NCBI RefSeq assembly: GCF_900129545.1
Contig: NZ_FQWB01000002.1
Coordinates: forward strand, 62,001-126,000
Length of the DNA stretch: 64,000 nucleotides
Source of the DNA: Flavobacterium fluvii
GTDB lineage: Bacteria; Bacteroidota; Bacteroidia; Flavobacteriales; Flavobacteriaceae
Direction of reading: 5' to 3'
The position numbers and the translations under genes were made by a program. Positions 12,597 through 17,664 of the stretch are shown here, piece after piece. The notes under the pieces are model-generated. The model worked only from the letters and a program-made list of their open reading frames with translations, was not told the DNA's origin and ran no database searches. Positions within the stretch are counted from its first letter, which is position 1. Each line of letters starts with the position of its first letter.

Positions 12597-13886
12597 TTAT
12601 CCCAAAAACGCTTTTAATTCCTCGTAAGTCTTGATTTTTGTACTTATTTTTTCTTTGTTCAATACGCTTTCAATTTGGGTAGGAATAGGCAATTGAATGT
12701 TCAAAGCCGGTTCTACCACATCTAAGAATTTGATGGGATGGGCTGTTTCCAAGAAAATTCCAATCGCAGTTGGATGGTTTTCTAGTTCTTTTTTCAAACC
12801 TAGATAGCCAACCGCACCGTGAGGTTCCGCAATGTAACCGTCGGTTTTGTAGATGGATTGCATGGCTTCCAAAGTTTCTTCATCGGTATAGGAAAAAGAA
12901 GAGAAATCTTTTTTGAATTGTTCCAAATCGTTGTTGTACATTTCCTGGATTCTGATGAAATTACTTGGATTCCCCACGTCCATTGCATTCGAAATGGTGG
13001 CTTTGGAAGGTTTTGGGTCGTAATTTCCTTTTTCCAAGAATCTTGGCACGGTATCATTCACGTTGGTCGAAGCCACGAAATGTTCGATAGGCAAGCCCAA
13101 TTTTTTGGCGATGATTCCGGCACAAATATTTCCGAAATTCCCGCTTGGGCAAGAAAATACCAAAGGCCTGTTTTGTGATTTCAATTGTTTGTAGGCAAAG
13201 AAAAAGTAGAACATTTGCGGCAACCAACGGGCAATGTTGATCGAGTTGGCCGAAGTAAGGTTGTGGTGCGCCAAACTTTCGTCCAAAAATGCTTTTTTGA
13301 CCATATCTTGGCAGTCGTCAAAAACACCGTCCACTTCCAATGCCTTGATGTTTTGTCCCAAGGTGGTCAATTGTCTTTCCTGAATGTCGCTCACTTTCCC
13401 GGAAGGGTATAAAATCACGACTTCCACGCCTTGAACTCCCAAGAAACCACTGGCAACTGCTCCTCCCGTATCGCCGGAAGTAGCCACAAGCACGGTATTT
13501 TTATTGTCTTTTTTGTCTTTGTTGAAATAACCCAAACAACGCGACATAAAACGTGCACCCACGTCCTTGAACGCCATTGTTGGCCCGTGATACAATTCCA
13601 AGGCATAGATGTCCTTTTCAACCGGCACGGTCGGGAAATCGAAACACAAAGTTTCGGCTATGATTTGTTTCAGGGTTTCGGCTGGAATTTCGTCGCCCAC
13701 AAATTGTTGGATGGCTGCAAAAGCAATTTCTTCGTTGCTCAAATTCTCGATGTTTTCGAAAAAATCAGCCTTTAATGGAGTGATGGATTCCGGAAAATAC
13801 AATCCTTTGTCGGTTGCCAATCCTTGTATTACGGCTTCTTGAAAAGAAACTTTTGGGGCATTATGGTTTAAACTGTAGTATTTCAT
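12597..13886 (-). CDS. thrC: Threonine synthase
   Basis: Last step of threonine synthesis: O-phosphohomoserine to threonine, PLP-dependent. The 429-residue product starts MKYYSLNHNAPKVSFQEAVI as in other class I (bacterial long-type) threonine synthases. Lys107 in HGPTMAFKDVGARF binds PLP; ATSGDTGGAVASGF is the phosphate loop and SCPSGNFGNICAG the second loop. Third gene of the thrA-thrB-thrC operon, 74 bases after thrB. Confidence 0.95.
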   Translation of the reverse strand: MKYYSLNHNAPKVSFQEAVIQGLATDKGLYFPESITPLKADFFENIENLSNEEIAFAAIQQFVGDEIPAETLKQIIAETLCFDFPTVPVEKDIYALELYHGPTMAFKDVGARFMSRCLGYFNKDKKDNKNTVLVATSGDTGGAVASGFLGVQGVEVVILYPSGKVSDIQERQLTTLGQNIKALEVDGVFDDCQDMVKKAFLDESLAHHNLTSANSINIARWLPQMFYFFFAYKQLKSQNRPLVFSCPSGNFGNICAGIIAKKLGLPIEHFVASTNVNDTVPRFLEKGNYDPKPSKATISNAMDVGNPSNFIRIQEMYNNDLEQFKKDFSSFSYTDEETLEAMQSIYKTDGYIAEPHGAVGYLGLKKELENHPTAIGIFLETAHPIKFLDVVEPALNIQLPIPTQIESVLNKEKISTKIKTYEELKAFLG

Positions 13887-13960: not shown

Positions 13961-14881
13961 TTATAATATACTTACTCCGTCCGGGTTTACTTTCGAAACG
14001 TGAATTTCATAAGGCAAATTGATTTCGTCATAAACGGCACTCATCGCTTTTGCTATTTTGTCGGCGGTTTCTTTTCCTTTGCTTAACGCAAAAATAGAAG
14101 GACCCGAACCGGATATTCCTGAACCCAAGGCTCCGTTTTCGTAAGCCGCTTTCTTGATCAAGTCAAAACCGGGAATCAACATGCTGCGAACGGGTTCGAT
14201 GATTTCATCATGCAGGGAACGCCCAATCAATTCGTAATCATTCGTATATAATCCGGCGACTAATCCGCCCACATTTCCCCATTGGGTGATGGCACTTTTC
14301 AGGGAAACGGTTTGTTTCAATACCGAACGCGCATCCGAAGTTTTCAACTCGATTTGAGGATGCACCACGGTGGCATACAATTCCGAAGGACTGTCAATTT
14401 TGATGATGTCTAAAGGATTCGAACTTCTTACCAAGGTAAAACCGCCCAAAAGGCAAGGGGCAACGTTGTCGGCATGGGCATTTCCGCTGGCCAACTTTTC
14501 GCCCTGCATGGCAAATTTCACCAACTCTTTTCGGGTAAAAGGTCGTCCCAATAATTCGTTGATTCCAAAAACGGCTCCGGCCGAACTGGCTGCACTGCTT
14601 CCGATTCCGCTTCCCGCCTTGATGTGTTTGTAGATTTCGATTTCGAAACCAAATTCGGTTTCCACTTCTTCCAACATCGCCAAAGCAGCCACGCCAGACA
14701 CATTGTTTTCGGTTTCCATTGGCAAATCCGCACCCACGATTTTGGTGATGCGAATGCCTTTTACATCGGATTTTCGAATAATCATTTCGTCTCCCGCAGT
14801 GGCCAAACACAATCCAAGAACGTCAAATCCGCAGGAAAGATTGGCAATGGTTGCAGGGCAAAATATTTTTATTTCATTCAT
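13961..14881 (-). CDS. thrB: Homoserine kinase
   Basis: GHMP-family kinase that phosphorylates homoserine. The 306-residue product has CPATIANLSCGFDVLGL near the N terminus, the ATP loop AGSGIGSSAASSAG (89-102) and the third GHMP motif GSGISGSGPSIFAL near residue 255. It lies between thrA and thrC in the same direction; an 89-base gap with repeat words separates it from thrA. Confidence 0.95.
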   Translation of the reverse strand: MNEIKIFCPATIANLSCGFDVLGLCLATAGDEMIIRKSDVKGIRITKIVGADLPMETENNVSGVAALAMLEEVETEFGFEIEIYKHIKAGSGIGSSAASSAGAVFGINELLGRPFTRKELVKFAMQGEKLASGNAHADNVAPCLLGGFTLVRSSNPLDIIKIDSPSELYATVVHPQIELKTSDARSVLKQTVSLKSAITQWGNVGGLVAGLYTNDYELIGRSLHDEIIEPVRSMLIPGFDLIKKAAYENGALGSGISGSGPSIFALSKGKETADKIAKAMSAVYDEINLPYEIHVSKVNPDGVSIL

Positions 14882-14970: not shown

Positions 14971-17418
14971 TTATATGTTTCCAATTCGGATTACGTCGGC
15001 AAAAATTCCGGAAGCCGTAACGGCTGCACCGGCACCGGCACCTTTTATCAACAAAGGTTGGTCAATGTATCGGTCGGTGTAAAATTGCACGATATTGTCT
15101 TTTCCTTCCAAATTATAGAACGGACTTTCTTTCGGGATAAATTCCAAACCAACGCTGGCTTTTCCGTTTTCGAAAGTGGCGACGTATTTCAAACGACAAT
15201 CTTTTGCTTTTGCTTCTGCCAATAAATTCTCGAAATGGGCCGCATTTTTTATCAATGATTTGAAAAAATCTTCGTTGTTGGTTGTTGCCAAACATTCAGC
15301 CGGCAAGAATGATCTGTTGGCAATGTCTTCGATGTCGAATTGGTAACCGCTTTCGCGAATTAAAATCAAAATCTTTCTGGCAACGTCCACGCCGCTCAAG
15401 TCGATTTTTGGGTCAGGCTCCGTGAATCCTTGAACTCCCGCTTCTTTTACCACATCGTGGAAAGAATTGTTTTCGTCAAAATTGTTGAAAATAAAGTTCA
15501 AACTTCCTGACAATACCGCTTGTATTTTGTTCACTTTATCGCCTGAAGCAATCAAATGCTTCAAGGTGTCGATGATAGGCAATCCTGCACCCACATTGGT
15601 TTCAAACAAGAAAGGCGCATTGAATTGACGGGAAAGGTTTTTTAGTTTTTTGTAATTGTCGTAAGCCGATGAACAAGCAATTTTGTTGCAGGTAACCACG
15701 GCAACGTTTTGTTTCAAATATTGCTCATAAGTTTCGGAAACTTCTTGATTGGCCGTAATGTCCACGAAAATACTGTTGCGCAAATTGAGTGCTTTTACTT
15801 TTGCAATAAAAGCTTCCTTGTCGGCTGTTTCTCCATTTTTCAATAGCAATTGCCAGTCTTTTAAAGGAATTCCATCTTCGTCAAAAAACATTTTTCTGGA
15901 ATTGGACACAGCCACAACTCTCAGGTTTATTTTTAGGTTTTCCTTCAGGAATTTCTTTTGTTGGCTGATTTGTTCGATGAATTTTTCACCCACGTTTCCA
16001 ACTCCCATCACGAACAAGTTCAATTGTTTGGTGTTTTCCTCGAAGAAGTTTTCGTGAAGCGTGTTCAATGCTTTTTTGACGTCTCTTTCGTTGATGACCG
16101 CTGAAATGTTTCTTTCGGAAGCACCTTGCGCAATCGCACGGATGTTGACGTTGTTTTTACCCAAAGTGCTGAACATTCGACCGCTCAAACCTTGGTGGTT
16201 TTTCATGTTTTCGCCTACCAAAGCAATGATGCAAAGGTCAGTTTCCGCAATGCAAGGGTCGATTTTGTTTTGGGCAATTTCAACCGCAAAGGCTTTGTTG
16301 ATGGCATTCTCTGCTTTTTCTGAATCGGAATTCAAAATTCCAATGCAAATAGAATGTTCTGACGAAGCTTGAGTAATGAAAATCACGTTGATGTTTTCCT
16401 GTGACAACACTTCGAAAAGTCTTTTGGAAGAACCGGCAACACCAATCATTCCTGAACCCTCCAGCGTGATCAAGGTAATGTTTTCGATATGGCTAATCCC
16501 TTTTACCGGATTGGTGTTGGATACCACTTTATCTGAAATCAATGTTCCTTCTGATTCTGGTTCGAAAGTGTTTTTGATTAGAATAGGAATGTTTTTTCTC
16601 AAAACCGGTTGAATCGTTGGAGGATACAATACTTTGGCACCAAAATGCGACAACTCCATTGCTTCTTGATAGGAAATGTTGGCAATAGGTTGGGCTTGTT
16701 TCACGATTTTAGGATTGGCGGTAAACATTCCGTTTACGTCAGTCCAGATTTCCAATTTGGTTGCGTCCAAGGCAGCAGCGATGATGGCGGCGGTGTAATC
16801 GGAACCTCCGCGTCCCAAAGTAGTGCCAATTCCGTCATTTGTTGCGGCGATGAAGCCTGGGATTACCACTATTTGCGCTTCATTCGAAGCAAAATAATCG
16901 GCAATTAATTCATTTGTAACATCAAAAATCACGGCAGCTTTGCCATAATTGTTGTTGGTTTTTATCAATTCACGGCTGTCTTTGTAACCGTAATTTTTGT
17001 CGTGTTGTTTGAAGGCTTCGGCAATGATGTAGGAAGACAATAATTCGCCAAAACTTAAAATGGTGTCTGAAGTTCTTGGGGATAATTCGCCAAGGAGAAA
17101 ACAACCGTCCAACAAGGTTTCGAGGTGGTTGATAATTCTTTTGATGTGGCTCAAAGAACTGCTTTGCTCGCTAACGGGAATCAATTCCTTGATGGCATCC
17201 AGGTGTTTTTTCTCGATTTCGGCCACGACTTCCTTGAAATTTTCGTCGTTTGAAGCGGCTTTTTGGGAGGCGAGAACCAATAAATCAGTAACTTTGGTAA
17301 AAGCGGAAACAACCACAACCAGTTTGTCTTGTTTTGCTTTGTTGAGGACTATATCTAAAACGAGTTTAATATTTTGTGCATTGGCTACAGAAGTTCCGCC
17401 AAATTTTAATACTTTCAT
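14971..17418 (-). CDS. thrA: Bifunctional aspartate kinase / homoserine dehydrogenase I
   Basis: Catalyses the first and third steps from aspartate to threonine. The 815-residue fusion has the kinase start MKVLKFGGTSVA, TTLGRGGSDYTA (199-210), tandem ACT domains at about 310-450 (including QGASERNISAVI at 431-442) for threonine feedback, then the dehydrogenase NAD(P) motif GVGNVGEKF (472-480) and a C-terminal catalytic domain ending in IKGAGAGAAVTASGIFADVIRI-type sequence. First structural gene of thrABC; a 33-codon poly-threonine leader 104 bases upstream suggests attenuation control. Confidence 0.96.
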   Translation of the reverse strand: MKVLKFGGTSVANAQNIKLVLDIVLNKAKQDKLVVVVSAFTKVTDLLVLASQKAASNDENFKEVVAEIEKKHLDAIKELIPVSEQSSSLSHIKRIINHLETLLDGCFLLGELSPRTSDTILSFGELLSSYIIAEAFKQHDKNYGYKDSRELIKTNNNYGKAAVIFDVTNELIADYFASNEAQIVVIPGFIAATNDGIGTTLGRGGSDYTAAIIAAALDATKLEIWTDVNGMFTANPKIVKQAQPIANISYQEAMELSHFGAKVLYPPTIQPVLRKNIPILIKNTFEPESEGTLISDKVVSNTNPVKGISHIENITLITLEGSGMIGVAGSSKRLFEVLSQENINVIFITQASSEHSICIGILNSDSEKAENAINKAFAVEIAQNKIDPCIAETDLCIIALVGENMKNHQGLSGRMFSTLGKNNVNIRAIAQGASERNISAVINERDVKKALNTLHENFFEENTKQLNLFVMGVGNVGEKFIEQISQQKKFLKENLKINLRVVAVSNSRKMFFDEDGIPLKDWQLLLKNGETADKEAFIAKVKALNLRNSIFVDITANQEVSETYEQYLKQNVAVVTCNKIACSSAYDNYKKLKNLSRQFNAPFLFETNVGAGLPIIDTLKHLIASGDKVNKIQAVLSGSLNFIFNNFDENNSFHDVVKEAGVQGFTEPDPKIDLSGVDVARKILILIRESGYQFDIEDIANRSFLPAECLATTNNEDFFKSLIKNAAHFENLLAEAKAKDCRLKYVATFENGKASVGLEFIPKESPFYNLEGKDNIVQFYTDRYIDQPLLIKGAGAGAAVTASGIFADVIRIGNI

Positions 17419-17522
17419 TTTGTTGTTTTTATTTAAAAATGCAAATGGTTTTTATACACCTATGAACTCTCTTCATTTAGAAAAAAGTACAAAAACTGGA
17501 TTATATGTAAAAATGTATACCC

Positions 17523-17624
17523 CTAAAGGGTAGTAGTAGTTGTAGTAGTGGTGGTGGTAATAGCACAAACTGCCCAAGTTTGGGTAGTCATCGAAGAGTG
17601 ATATGTGTTGCTGTTGTTTGCCAT
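17523..17624 (-). CDS. thrL: Threonine operon leader peptide (ten consecutive Thr codons)
   Basis: ATG at 17624 opens a 33-codon frame ending in TAG at 17523-17525, in the orientation of thrA and 104 bases before its start. It encodes MANNSNTYHSSMTTQ, then TWAVCAI, then ten threonines and a leucine; thirteen threonines lie in the last 21 residues. This is the hallmark of an amino-acid attenuator: ribosome stalling at uncharged tRNA-Thr would change mRNA folding before thrA. Short hairpins (CAAACT/AGTTTG at 17566-17582, and CCC/GGG around the stop) could take part. It is analogous to E. coli thrL but not obviously homologous. I see no classic GC-rich terminator between it and thrA, so translation- or Rho-based control is possible. 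Confidence 0.85.
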   Translation of the reverse strand: MANNSNTYHSSMTTQTWAVCAITTTTTTTTTTL

Positions 17625-17634
17625 TTTGATTTTT

Positions 17635-17664
17635 CAAAAGTACAGTTTTTTACAAAACTACAAA
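17635..17664 (-). promoter_or_regulatory. Promoter for the thr leader and operon
   Basis: Minus strand TTTG (17661-17664), an 18-base spacer, then TACTTTTG (17635-17642). This would start RNA only about 5 bases before the leader ATG. A second -7-like box TAGTTTTG (17653-17660) overlaps and would leave about 23 bases. Confidence 0.6.

Follow-up and report, generated by a model that had tools for sequence, protein, structure and literature searches.

The threonine operon thrABC of Flavobacterium fluvii is very probably controlled by a leader peptide that senses threonine, and this control probably acts through a short RNA hairpin, P2, built around the stop codon of the leader. The overall reading, in which a threonine-sensing leader governs transcription into thrABC and belongs to a terminator-free "stop-codon hairpin" type, seems to us evenly balanced between right and wrong. 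We propose, more tentatively and with slightly less than an even chance in its favour, that P2 together with a YAUAU motif about 10 nt later is the output element of an undescribed class of terminator-free attenuators in at least two classes of Bacteroidota, that it is masked directly by a ribosome stalled on the adjoining Thr/Ile codons, and that it is evolutionarily interchangeable with the antiterminator/terminator pair. A preliminary description of this DNA missed the stop-codon hairpin and the YAUAU following it, which are present where the terminator is missing. The whole stretch of DNA analysed, 64 kb long, is called the window here, and its relevant features are the following:

17661 to 17664, minus strand: -33 box TTTG, read from the sequence; presumably the -33 box type of Bacteroidota promoters
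17635 to 17642, minus strand: -7 box TACTTTTG (TAnnTTTG), from the sequence and the sigma-A consensus
17523 to 17624, minus strand: leader peptide ORF of 33 codons, translated as MANNSNTYHSSMTTQTWAVCAITTTTTTTTTTL before the stop, with Thr-rich leader ORFs in relatives of the genus
17612 to 17609 pairing with 17565 to 17562, minus strand: P0, a helix enclosing P1, from folding and an arm-swap test
17568 to 17589, minus strand: P1, a hairpin inside the ORF (GACU.CCCA / UGGG.AGUU), from folding and an arm-swap test
17529 to 17558, minus strand: ten consecutive Thr codons (control codons), directly read
17518 to 17532, minus strand: P2, the stop-codon hairpin UACCCU-UUA-GGGGUA, from folding, a consensus scan and conservation
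17498 to 17508, minus strand: conserved ACAUAUAAUCC, in which YAUAU (CAUAU, 17507-17503) begins 11 nt after P2
17466 to 17488, minus strand: P3, an AU-rich hairpin (ACUUUUUUC / GAAGAGAGU) with no U tract after it, from folding and covariation
14971 to 17418, minus strand: thrA, bifunctional aspartate kinase/homoserine dehydrogenase (NF006959, 1058 bits, cut-off 726)
13961 to 14881, minus strand: thrB, homoserine kinase (curated model, above its cut-off)
12597 to 13886, minus strand: thrC, threonine synthase (curated model, above its cut-off)

The leader ORF runs from the ATG at 17624-17622 to the TAG at 17525-17523, with a Leu between the Thr run and the stop, and 104 nt (17522-17419) separate the stop from the ATG of thrA. 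The frame of 33 codons with ten Thr codons at this distance from thrA, on which the preliminary description was built, is correct in both coordinates and translation, and its identification of the downstream genes as thrABC agrees with the curated-model scores of all three. The Thr run is singular in its surroundings: all frames of the window together hold one run of 10 Thr codons, two of 5 and five of 4, the run of the leader being the sole one longer than 5 in any frame. Upstream of the leader lies a divergent neighbour, a histidine ammonia-lyase gene. In Flavobacterium, the counterparts of ACAUAUCA (17606-17599 in the window, inside the ORF) and of ACAUAUAAUCC (17508-17498, after P2) are near-direct repeats. 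The genome also carries a second aspartokinase-homoserine dehydrogenase gene (L002; C13:57164-59563, minus strand; 36% identical), within 400 nt of which no comparable leader was found.

The leader is retained among the closest relatives of the window. A thrA match at E 1e-200 was found in 70 of 101 genus genomes; the genus set of 110 upstreams, made up of the best 80 of 232 loci, the 29 best loci from further genus genomes and the window itself, consists of closest relatives, is conditional on having thrA, and contains 97 sequences that are non-redundant over the leader. With a strict parser, a Thr/Ile-rich ORF and the stop-codon hairpin were recovered in every one of the 110. Of the best 80 of 232 loci, 73 have an ORF starting with ATG in which four or more Thr codons follow one another without a break, and in the remaining 7 the run is interrupted by Ile. 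The leaders are 28-35 codons long, and 108 of them together use ACT 347 times, ACA 282, ACC 149 and ACG 22 times; since Thr third bases and ORF lengths vary, selection is on the Thr codons and the frame. Third-base changes at conserved Thr codons had been named beforehand as support for the leader, and all four codons are indeed in use. In an extra set of 20 more divergent genus members (thrA identity 58-80%), 17 have the ORF with P2, one has the ORF without P2 by the parser (peptide end TPLGYIFHI), and two have neither. The preliminary proposal of a conserved Thr-codon leader ahead of thrABC is thus upheld in all 110 of the closest upstreams and in 17 of the 20 divergent ones, and the loss of the frame or Thr run in close relatives that keep thrA, which had been named as evidence against it, was looked for and does not occur in the closest set. 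The two divergent members with neither element (L325 and L332) keep thrA and show no Thr-rich leader ORF in the fetched stretch, which in L332 is cut at the contig end; leader loss, another promoter or a contig edge may be responsible. Two contigs titled as MAGs of Klebsiella pneumoniae (L042) and Lentimicrobium (L039) carry a flavobacterial thrA (90-91% identity) with a Flavobacterium leader and are probably misbinned or mislabelled.

The promoter arrangement TTTG-N18-TACTTTTG is likewise present as first described (TTTG at 17664-17661, box at 17642-17635), and the second box corresponds to the sigma-A -7 consensus TAnnTTTG given in PMC9723704. A TA-n(2-3)-TTT(G/A) box is found 6-14 nt ahead of the ATG in 108 of the 110 genus upstreams. 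Judged from the promoter box, the leader mRNA is predicted to have a 5' end of 5 bases. Such predicted near-leaderlessness would be a trait of the genus Flavobacterium, because the box lies 9-11 nt ahead of the ATG in 104 of its 108 parsed leaders, whereas 34 of the 46 family leaders in which a box was recognised have 15-23 nt there.

P2 joins the end of the Thr run to the end of the ORF. In the window the last Thr codon lies in its 5' arm and the TAG stop within the hairpin; throughout the genus set (110/110) the stem has 5-6 bp and the stop codon lies inside the hairpin or touches its 3' end. The form is ACCC(C)-loop-GGGGU, with the ORF ending as ACC C(C/T)N..GGG(G). At the family level, where thrA was found in 204 of 249 genomes and 100 upstreams were fetched from the best 150 places listed, P2 occurs at most 250 nt from thrA in 92 of the 100 upstreams and is accompanied by a YAUAU-like motif in 83, and the ORF with P2 is recognised by the strict parser in 81. 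The family peptides end in ...TTTPLG, ...TTTLWGC or ...TITPFGV before the stop, and their N-terminal parts differ between clades; in these other clades the control codons appear to be Thr/Ile codons running into P2. At E 1e-120, 81 of 146 genomes drawn from the order and 151 of 198 drawn from the phylum had thrA or a fused relative. In a distant set of 60 upstreams, hand-picked across families with the last 20 biased to families already of interest, the parser assigned 18 an ORF ending in P2, 8 an ORF without P2 and 34 no such ORF; being strict, it misses some cases, such as L230 and L246, in which another scan finds P2. The 18 come from several families, among which f35 belongs to another class. 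At least two classes of Bacteroidota contain families with the P2 leader form.

The stem occurs in a flipped form, ACGGG/CCCGU, in L236, L239, L295 and L298, all of one family (f21), and its loop then holds UGA or UAA; CAUAU follows about 10 nt on in L239 and L295 and not in L236 and L298. Over all 209 P2 leaders, the second pair of the stem is C-G in 201 and G-C in 8, the two bases changing together, and the last Thr codon overlaps the 5' arm in 207 (110/110 in the genus, 80/81 in the family, 17/18 in the distant set). The stem flip is the strongest evidence that P2 acts as a hairpin at the stop codon and not as a sequence. A search model of P2 plus YAUAU (R1), built from 40 sequences, keeps only two base pairs and describes sequence far more than structure; with strict filters at E 0.01 it matched one place in this genome and one each in 50 of 392 genomes. 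Of these 50 matches, 37 were checked, and 36 stand in front of thrA; the single exception (L288) has no Thr-rich ORF and looks accidental.

The textbook form of amino-acid attenuation combines an antiterminator with a terminator. The preliminary description saw no classical terminator between the leader and thrA, and we agree: a consensus scan of the leader strand in the window called only the short P2 (17532-17518) terminator-like, which it does because the broken T stretch TACATTTTTA follows, and many other genera lack this stretch. The his leader of the same genome (L216, on C23, upstream of hisG at 172258) is alike in placing a leader peptide with codons for the end product ahead of its operon, the peptide being MLSTQLHHHHFHYCSQAMC before the stop, and unlike in its classical-looking read-out, a 14-pair terminator with a U tract about 60 nt ahead of hisG. 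Since the his attenuator is classical in this very genome, the missing thr terminator is a property of the leader and not of the organism.

The same difference is found among thr leaders themselves. Eight leaders from other Bacteroidota families (L225, L227, L228, L237, L238, L244, L299 and L300) stand before the same gene and have a similar Thr/Ile-rich ORF; they lack the stop-codon hairpin, and all eight have terminator stems of 11-15 pairs (5-7 of them G-C) with a U tract. Among the 209 P2 leaders, in contrast, 203 have no terminator and 6 have weak stems of three G-C pairs each (Fisher p 2.8e-11, a value that ignores relatedness and whose P2-less side consists of 8 sequences from a small number of families). 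The distant set alone gives 17 of 18 P2 leaders without a terminator and 8 of 8 P2-less leaders with one. The Thr/Ile codons of the eight classical leaders lie mainly 8-17 codons before the stop, a spacing that leaves room for an antiterminator segment; this contrast is not absolute, as 3 of the 8 also have Thr in the last four codons. By this comparison, P2 and the classical terminator stand in for each other ahead of one operon within a single phylum, and P2 seems to take the place that the terminator holds in textbook amino-acid attenuators.

The second conserved element is YAUAU, which starts 10-12 nt after the last paired base of P2 in 108 of 110 genus sequences. Counted at 8-13 nt, it occurs in 76 of the 78 distinct downstream strings of the genus, where shuffling gives a mean of 5.7; the family (39 of 81 strings) and the distant set (11 of 18) have it less regularly. 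In PMC9291695, the stem-to-pause distance of hisL is 10 nt and the E. coli pause consensus is G-10 Y-1 G+1. The genus arrangement, a stem of 5-6 bp with YAUAU about 10 nt on, would fit the geometry of a hisL-type pause if YAUAU is taken as the pause position. With its Y placed at -1, the motif has A, not G, at +1, and therefore departs from the hisL-type consensus, which is that of E. coli.

P0 and P1 precede the Thr run in the Flavobacterium ORF. For 97 genus sequences, the native arms of P1 pair at -6.4 kcal/mol versus -5.3 for mismatched arms (z -8.6), and P0 gives z -7.0 to -8.4; these genus duplex tests are confounded by relatedness, since z goes down to -7.1 in cells of unfavourable energy and to -6.1 in ORF-by-downstream cells. 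P3 lies about 25-50 nt downstream of P2, as a rule with no U tract behind it. It has covarying column pairs in the genus alignment, and in two other clades its native arms pair better than mismatched ones (z -5.7, n=55; z -8.7, n=37), in a test in which cells with overlapping windows were disregarded. The leader of the window as a whole is modestly more stable than its shuffles (z -1.57). In many Flavobacterium (L046-L051, L053, L060, L068, L079 and others), an extra unrelated segment of about 80 nt is found between P3 and thrA, and the distance from stop to thrA is about 170-195 nt with this insert versus the usual 105 or so. In L294 (reverse complement, leader hairpin from 433), an unrelated 144-codon ORF, of GxxExxY type by eye, lies between the leader and thrA; the leader thus tolerates gene insertion.

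An AU-rich antiterminator, suggested in the preliminary description, did not emerge from the covariation and duplex tests: no convincing mutually exclusive helix was found among the genus column pairs (96 of the 110 sequences, 89 distinct; 14 were left out, 3 of them because no box or hairpin was found) or in duplex tests of the genus and other clades. In the top covarying column pair of the genus, the last C of ACCCC is matched with the G that opens GGGUGUAUA (17461-17453), with a corrected mutual information of 0.55, canonical pairing in 0.94 of weighted sequences and two pair types. The best candidate for a helix of this kind, a possible pairing of the 5' arm of P2 with this GG before thrA, would compete with P2; it was not adopted, as the variation divides along two clades and, by eye, adjacent bases are unpaired in the GGAUACAU species. 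Two further helices were set aside. First, UAUAAUCC with GG(G/A)UGUAUA folds in some species, and the changes in its arms are mismatched. Second, a long-range helix of ACGGAC early in the ORF with GUCCGU after the stop, spotted by eye in one family clade, had z -2.9 (6 of 2000 permutations) as the best cell and about -2 on a larger set. In the clade with peptides ending in ...TTTLWGC (for example L147, L155, L194 and L203), the Ile-Thr-Thr sequence AUUACAA before P2 is complementary to the P3 5' arm UUGUAAU; some changes match (AUCACAA/UUGUGAU), with z -3.4 among 112 cells.

We propose the following mechanism. When charged tRNA-Thr is short, the ribosome would halt on the Thr run with its footprint over P2, which then could not form, and RNA polymerase would continue into thrA. 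With ample threonine, the ribosome would reach the stop and leave; the free P2 would form in the RNA exit channel while the polymerase is about 10 nt further on, at YAUAU, causing it to pause. A factor would then terminate the paused transcription, either at this point or at P3; the simplest choice is Rho, which may load on the naked, G-poor RNA of the Thr codons. Such a masking model needs no antiterminator. We give the masking of a pausing P2 by a stalled ribosome the same chance of being right as of being wrong. Rho is the simplest candidate for the terminating factor because the leader RNA is C-rich and G-poor, a composition that Thr codons alone would give; its part here is doubtful. Release at the stop must be fast in the masking model, as P2 would be covered for a short time by a ribosome at the stop as well, and a ribosome halted early in the ten-codon run would leave P2 free, which speaks against masking in its simple form.

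Among other explanations, Rho-dependent attenuation with an incidental P2, in which the Thr-codon stretch would be a Rho site shielded by the stalled ribosome as on tnaC, fares best and is still unlikely. The leader has no terminator and is C-rich and G-poor: the 78 nt of leader RNA from 17605 to 17528 hold 27 C and 8 G, matched by 0.03% of the 78-nt windows of the 64 kb, and a C-over-G bubble is reached by 2 of 47 control upstreams and is largely forced by Thr codons. The tolerance of the P3-thrA stretch for inserts of about 80 nt, and in L294 even for a gene, is also in keeping with Rho. However, the classical leaders are, by eye, C-rich from their Thr codons as well, and an incidental P2 leaves three observations unexplained, namely its wide retention, the stem flip with the stop kept in the loop, and the spacing of YAUAU.

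Ordinary attenuation by alternative structures would require a weak AU-rich terminator, a hairpin on UAUAAUCC...URUA ending in C-UUUUUU (17486-17481), which another pairing would block when the ribosome stalls. Hairpins just before this U tract do fold in L101, L044, L046 and L055, while for the window no more than a short form could be sketched by eye. We did not adopt this terminator and consider the explanation rather improbable: the 5' side (ACAUAUAAUCC) is nearly invariant and the 3' side drifts without matching changes, the U tract makes up the 5' arm of P3 (a helix in which one C-G column pair is canonical in 0.99 of weighted sequences with three pair types), and the alignments of other clades in the family retain P2 but show no such terminator.

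Control of translation or mRNA stability has a similarly low probability. Here, translation of the leader would alter access to the thrA start or expose the message to decay at P2/P3, in keeping with the missing terminator and with a leader-to-thrA distance of only about 60-85 nt in many genera. The inserts of about 80 nt, or a whole gene, tolerated between P3 and thrA argue against it, as do the similar leaders in other families of the phylum, which use a transcription terminator; moreover, no pairing with the thrA start turned up in our tests, which were not aimed at the start codon. It is very unlikely that the palindrome ACCCC-N-GGGGU, symmetrical in DNA and fixed in place, is the operator of a repressor with the Thr-rich ORF as decoration, for P2 sits at the end of a Thr/Ile-rich ORF, whose stop it overlaps or touches and whose last Thr codon lies in the 5' arm of the hairpin in 207 of 209 leaders, and the flipped form keeps the pairing and the stop position but not an operator sequence. 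That the ORF encodes a small working protein is hardly credible: its N-terminal half is fairly conserved at the amino-acid level among close Flavobacterium, but this part changes between clades while the Thr/Ile richness, P2 and the stop stay.

In Rfam, the thrL attenuator of enterobacteria is the family Thr_leader (RF00506). No Rfam family, Thr_leader included, reached its gathering score in the window, and a comparison of the leader with Rfam at E up to 10 gave no Thr_leader and only chance matches to idnO (E 9.8) and a Drosophila snoRNA (E 8.5). Earlier work on attenuators by Vitreschak et al. (2004) is said to include Bacteroidetes. Clues for leader-peptide attenuation ahead of amino-acid operons of F. 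psychrophilum are reported in PMC9723704, whose main text mentions neither threonine nor thrA, and leader-like sORFs in Bacteroides are described in PMC7366714. PMC2864571 lists Bacteroid-trp and, in its table, a GUCCY-hairpin; a GUCC element occurs in some of our clades, and no identity of the two is claimed. A thr leader of Bacteroidota does not appear in the available parts of PMC4833913 and PMC6429828, and a search of PMC2965389 gave no matching terms. In the open-access literature searched, no description was found of a stop-codon hairpin that replaces a terminator.

In the thr leader, the sensing is ordinary, by Thr codons in a leader peptide at the same operon as in the textbook, and it is the output linked to this sensor that appears to differ. 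Because families of one phylum carry either output, the two solutions can be compared side by side. To our knowledge, Bacteroidota is a phylum without Shine-Dalgarno sequences, and the P2 leader offers a concrete, mutable RNA element for studying the coupling of ribosome and RNA polymerase in their absence. It is also a recognisable signature for annotating thr operons in Bacteroidota.

Three known systems invite comparison. First, the hairpin-stabilised pauses of hisL and trpL in E. coli, as described in PMC9291695, share with the Flavobacterium leader a short stem and a spacer of about 10 nt. They differ in the G at +1, which the Flavobacterium leader does not have, and its pause is predicted from sequence. 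Second, tnaC and mgtL are Rho-controlled leader peptides without an intrinsic terminator that sense other signals, and on tnaC the ribosome on the leader shields a Rho site. The thr leader is alike in having no intrinsic terminator, and its ribosome could shield the RNA from Rho, whose role here is putative. Third, thrL of enterobacteria encodes a leader peptide with Thr/Ile codons before thrABC, and the position of the ribosome is the sensor. Its control by threonine and isoleucine is stated in PMC9291695. The two leaders are alike in placing a Thr/Ile-codon peptide ahead of thrABC; unlike thrL, the Flavobacterium leader has no intrinsic terminator and no antiterminator segment between control codons and stop, and carries its hairpin on the stop itself.
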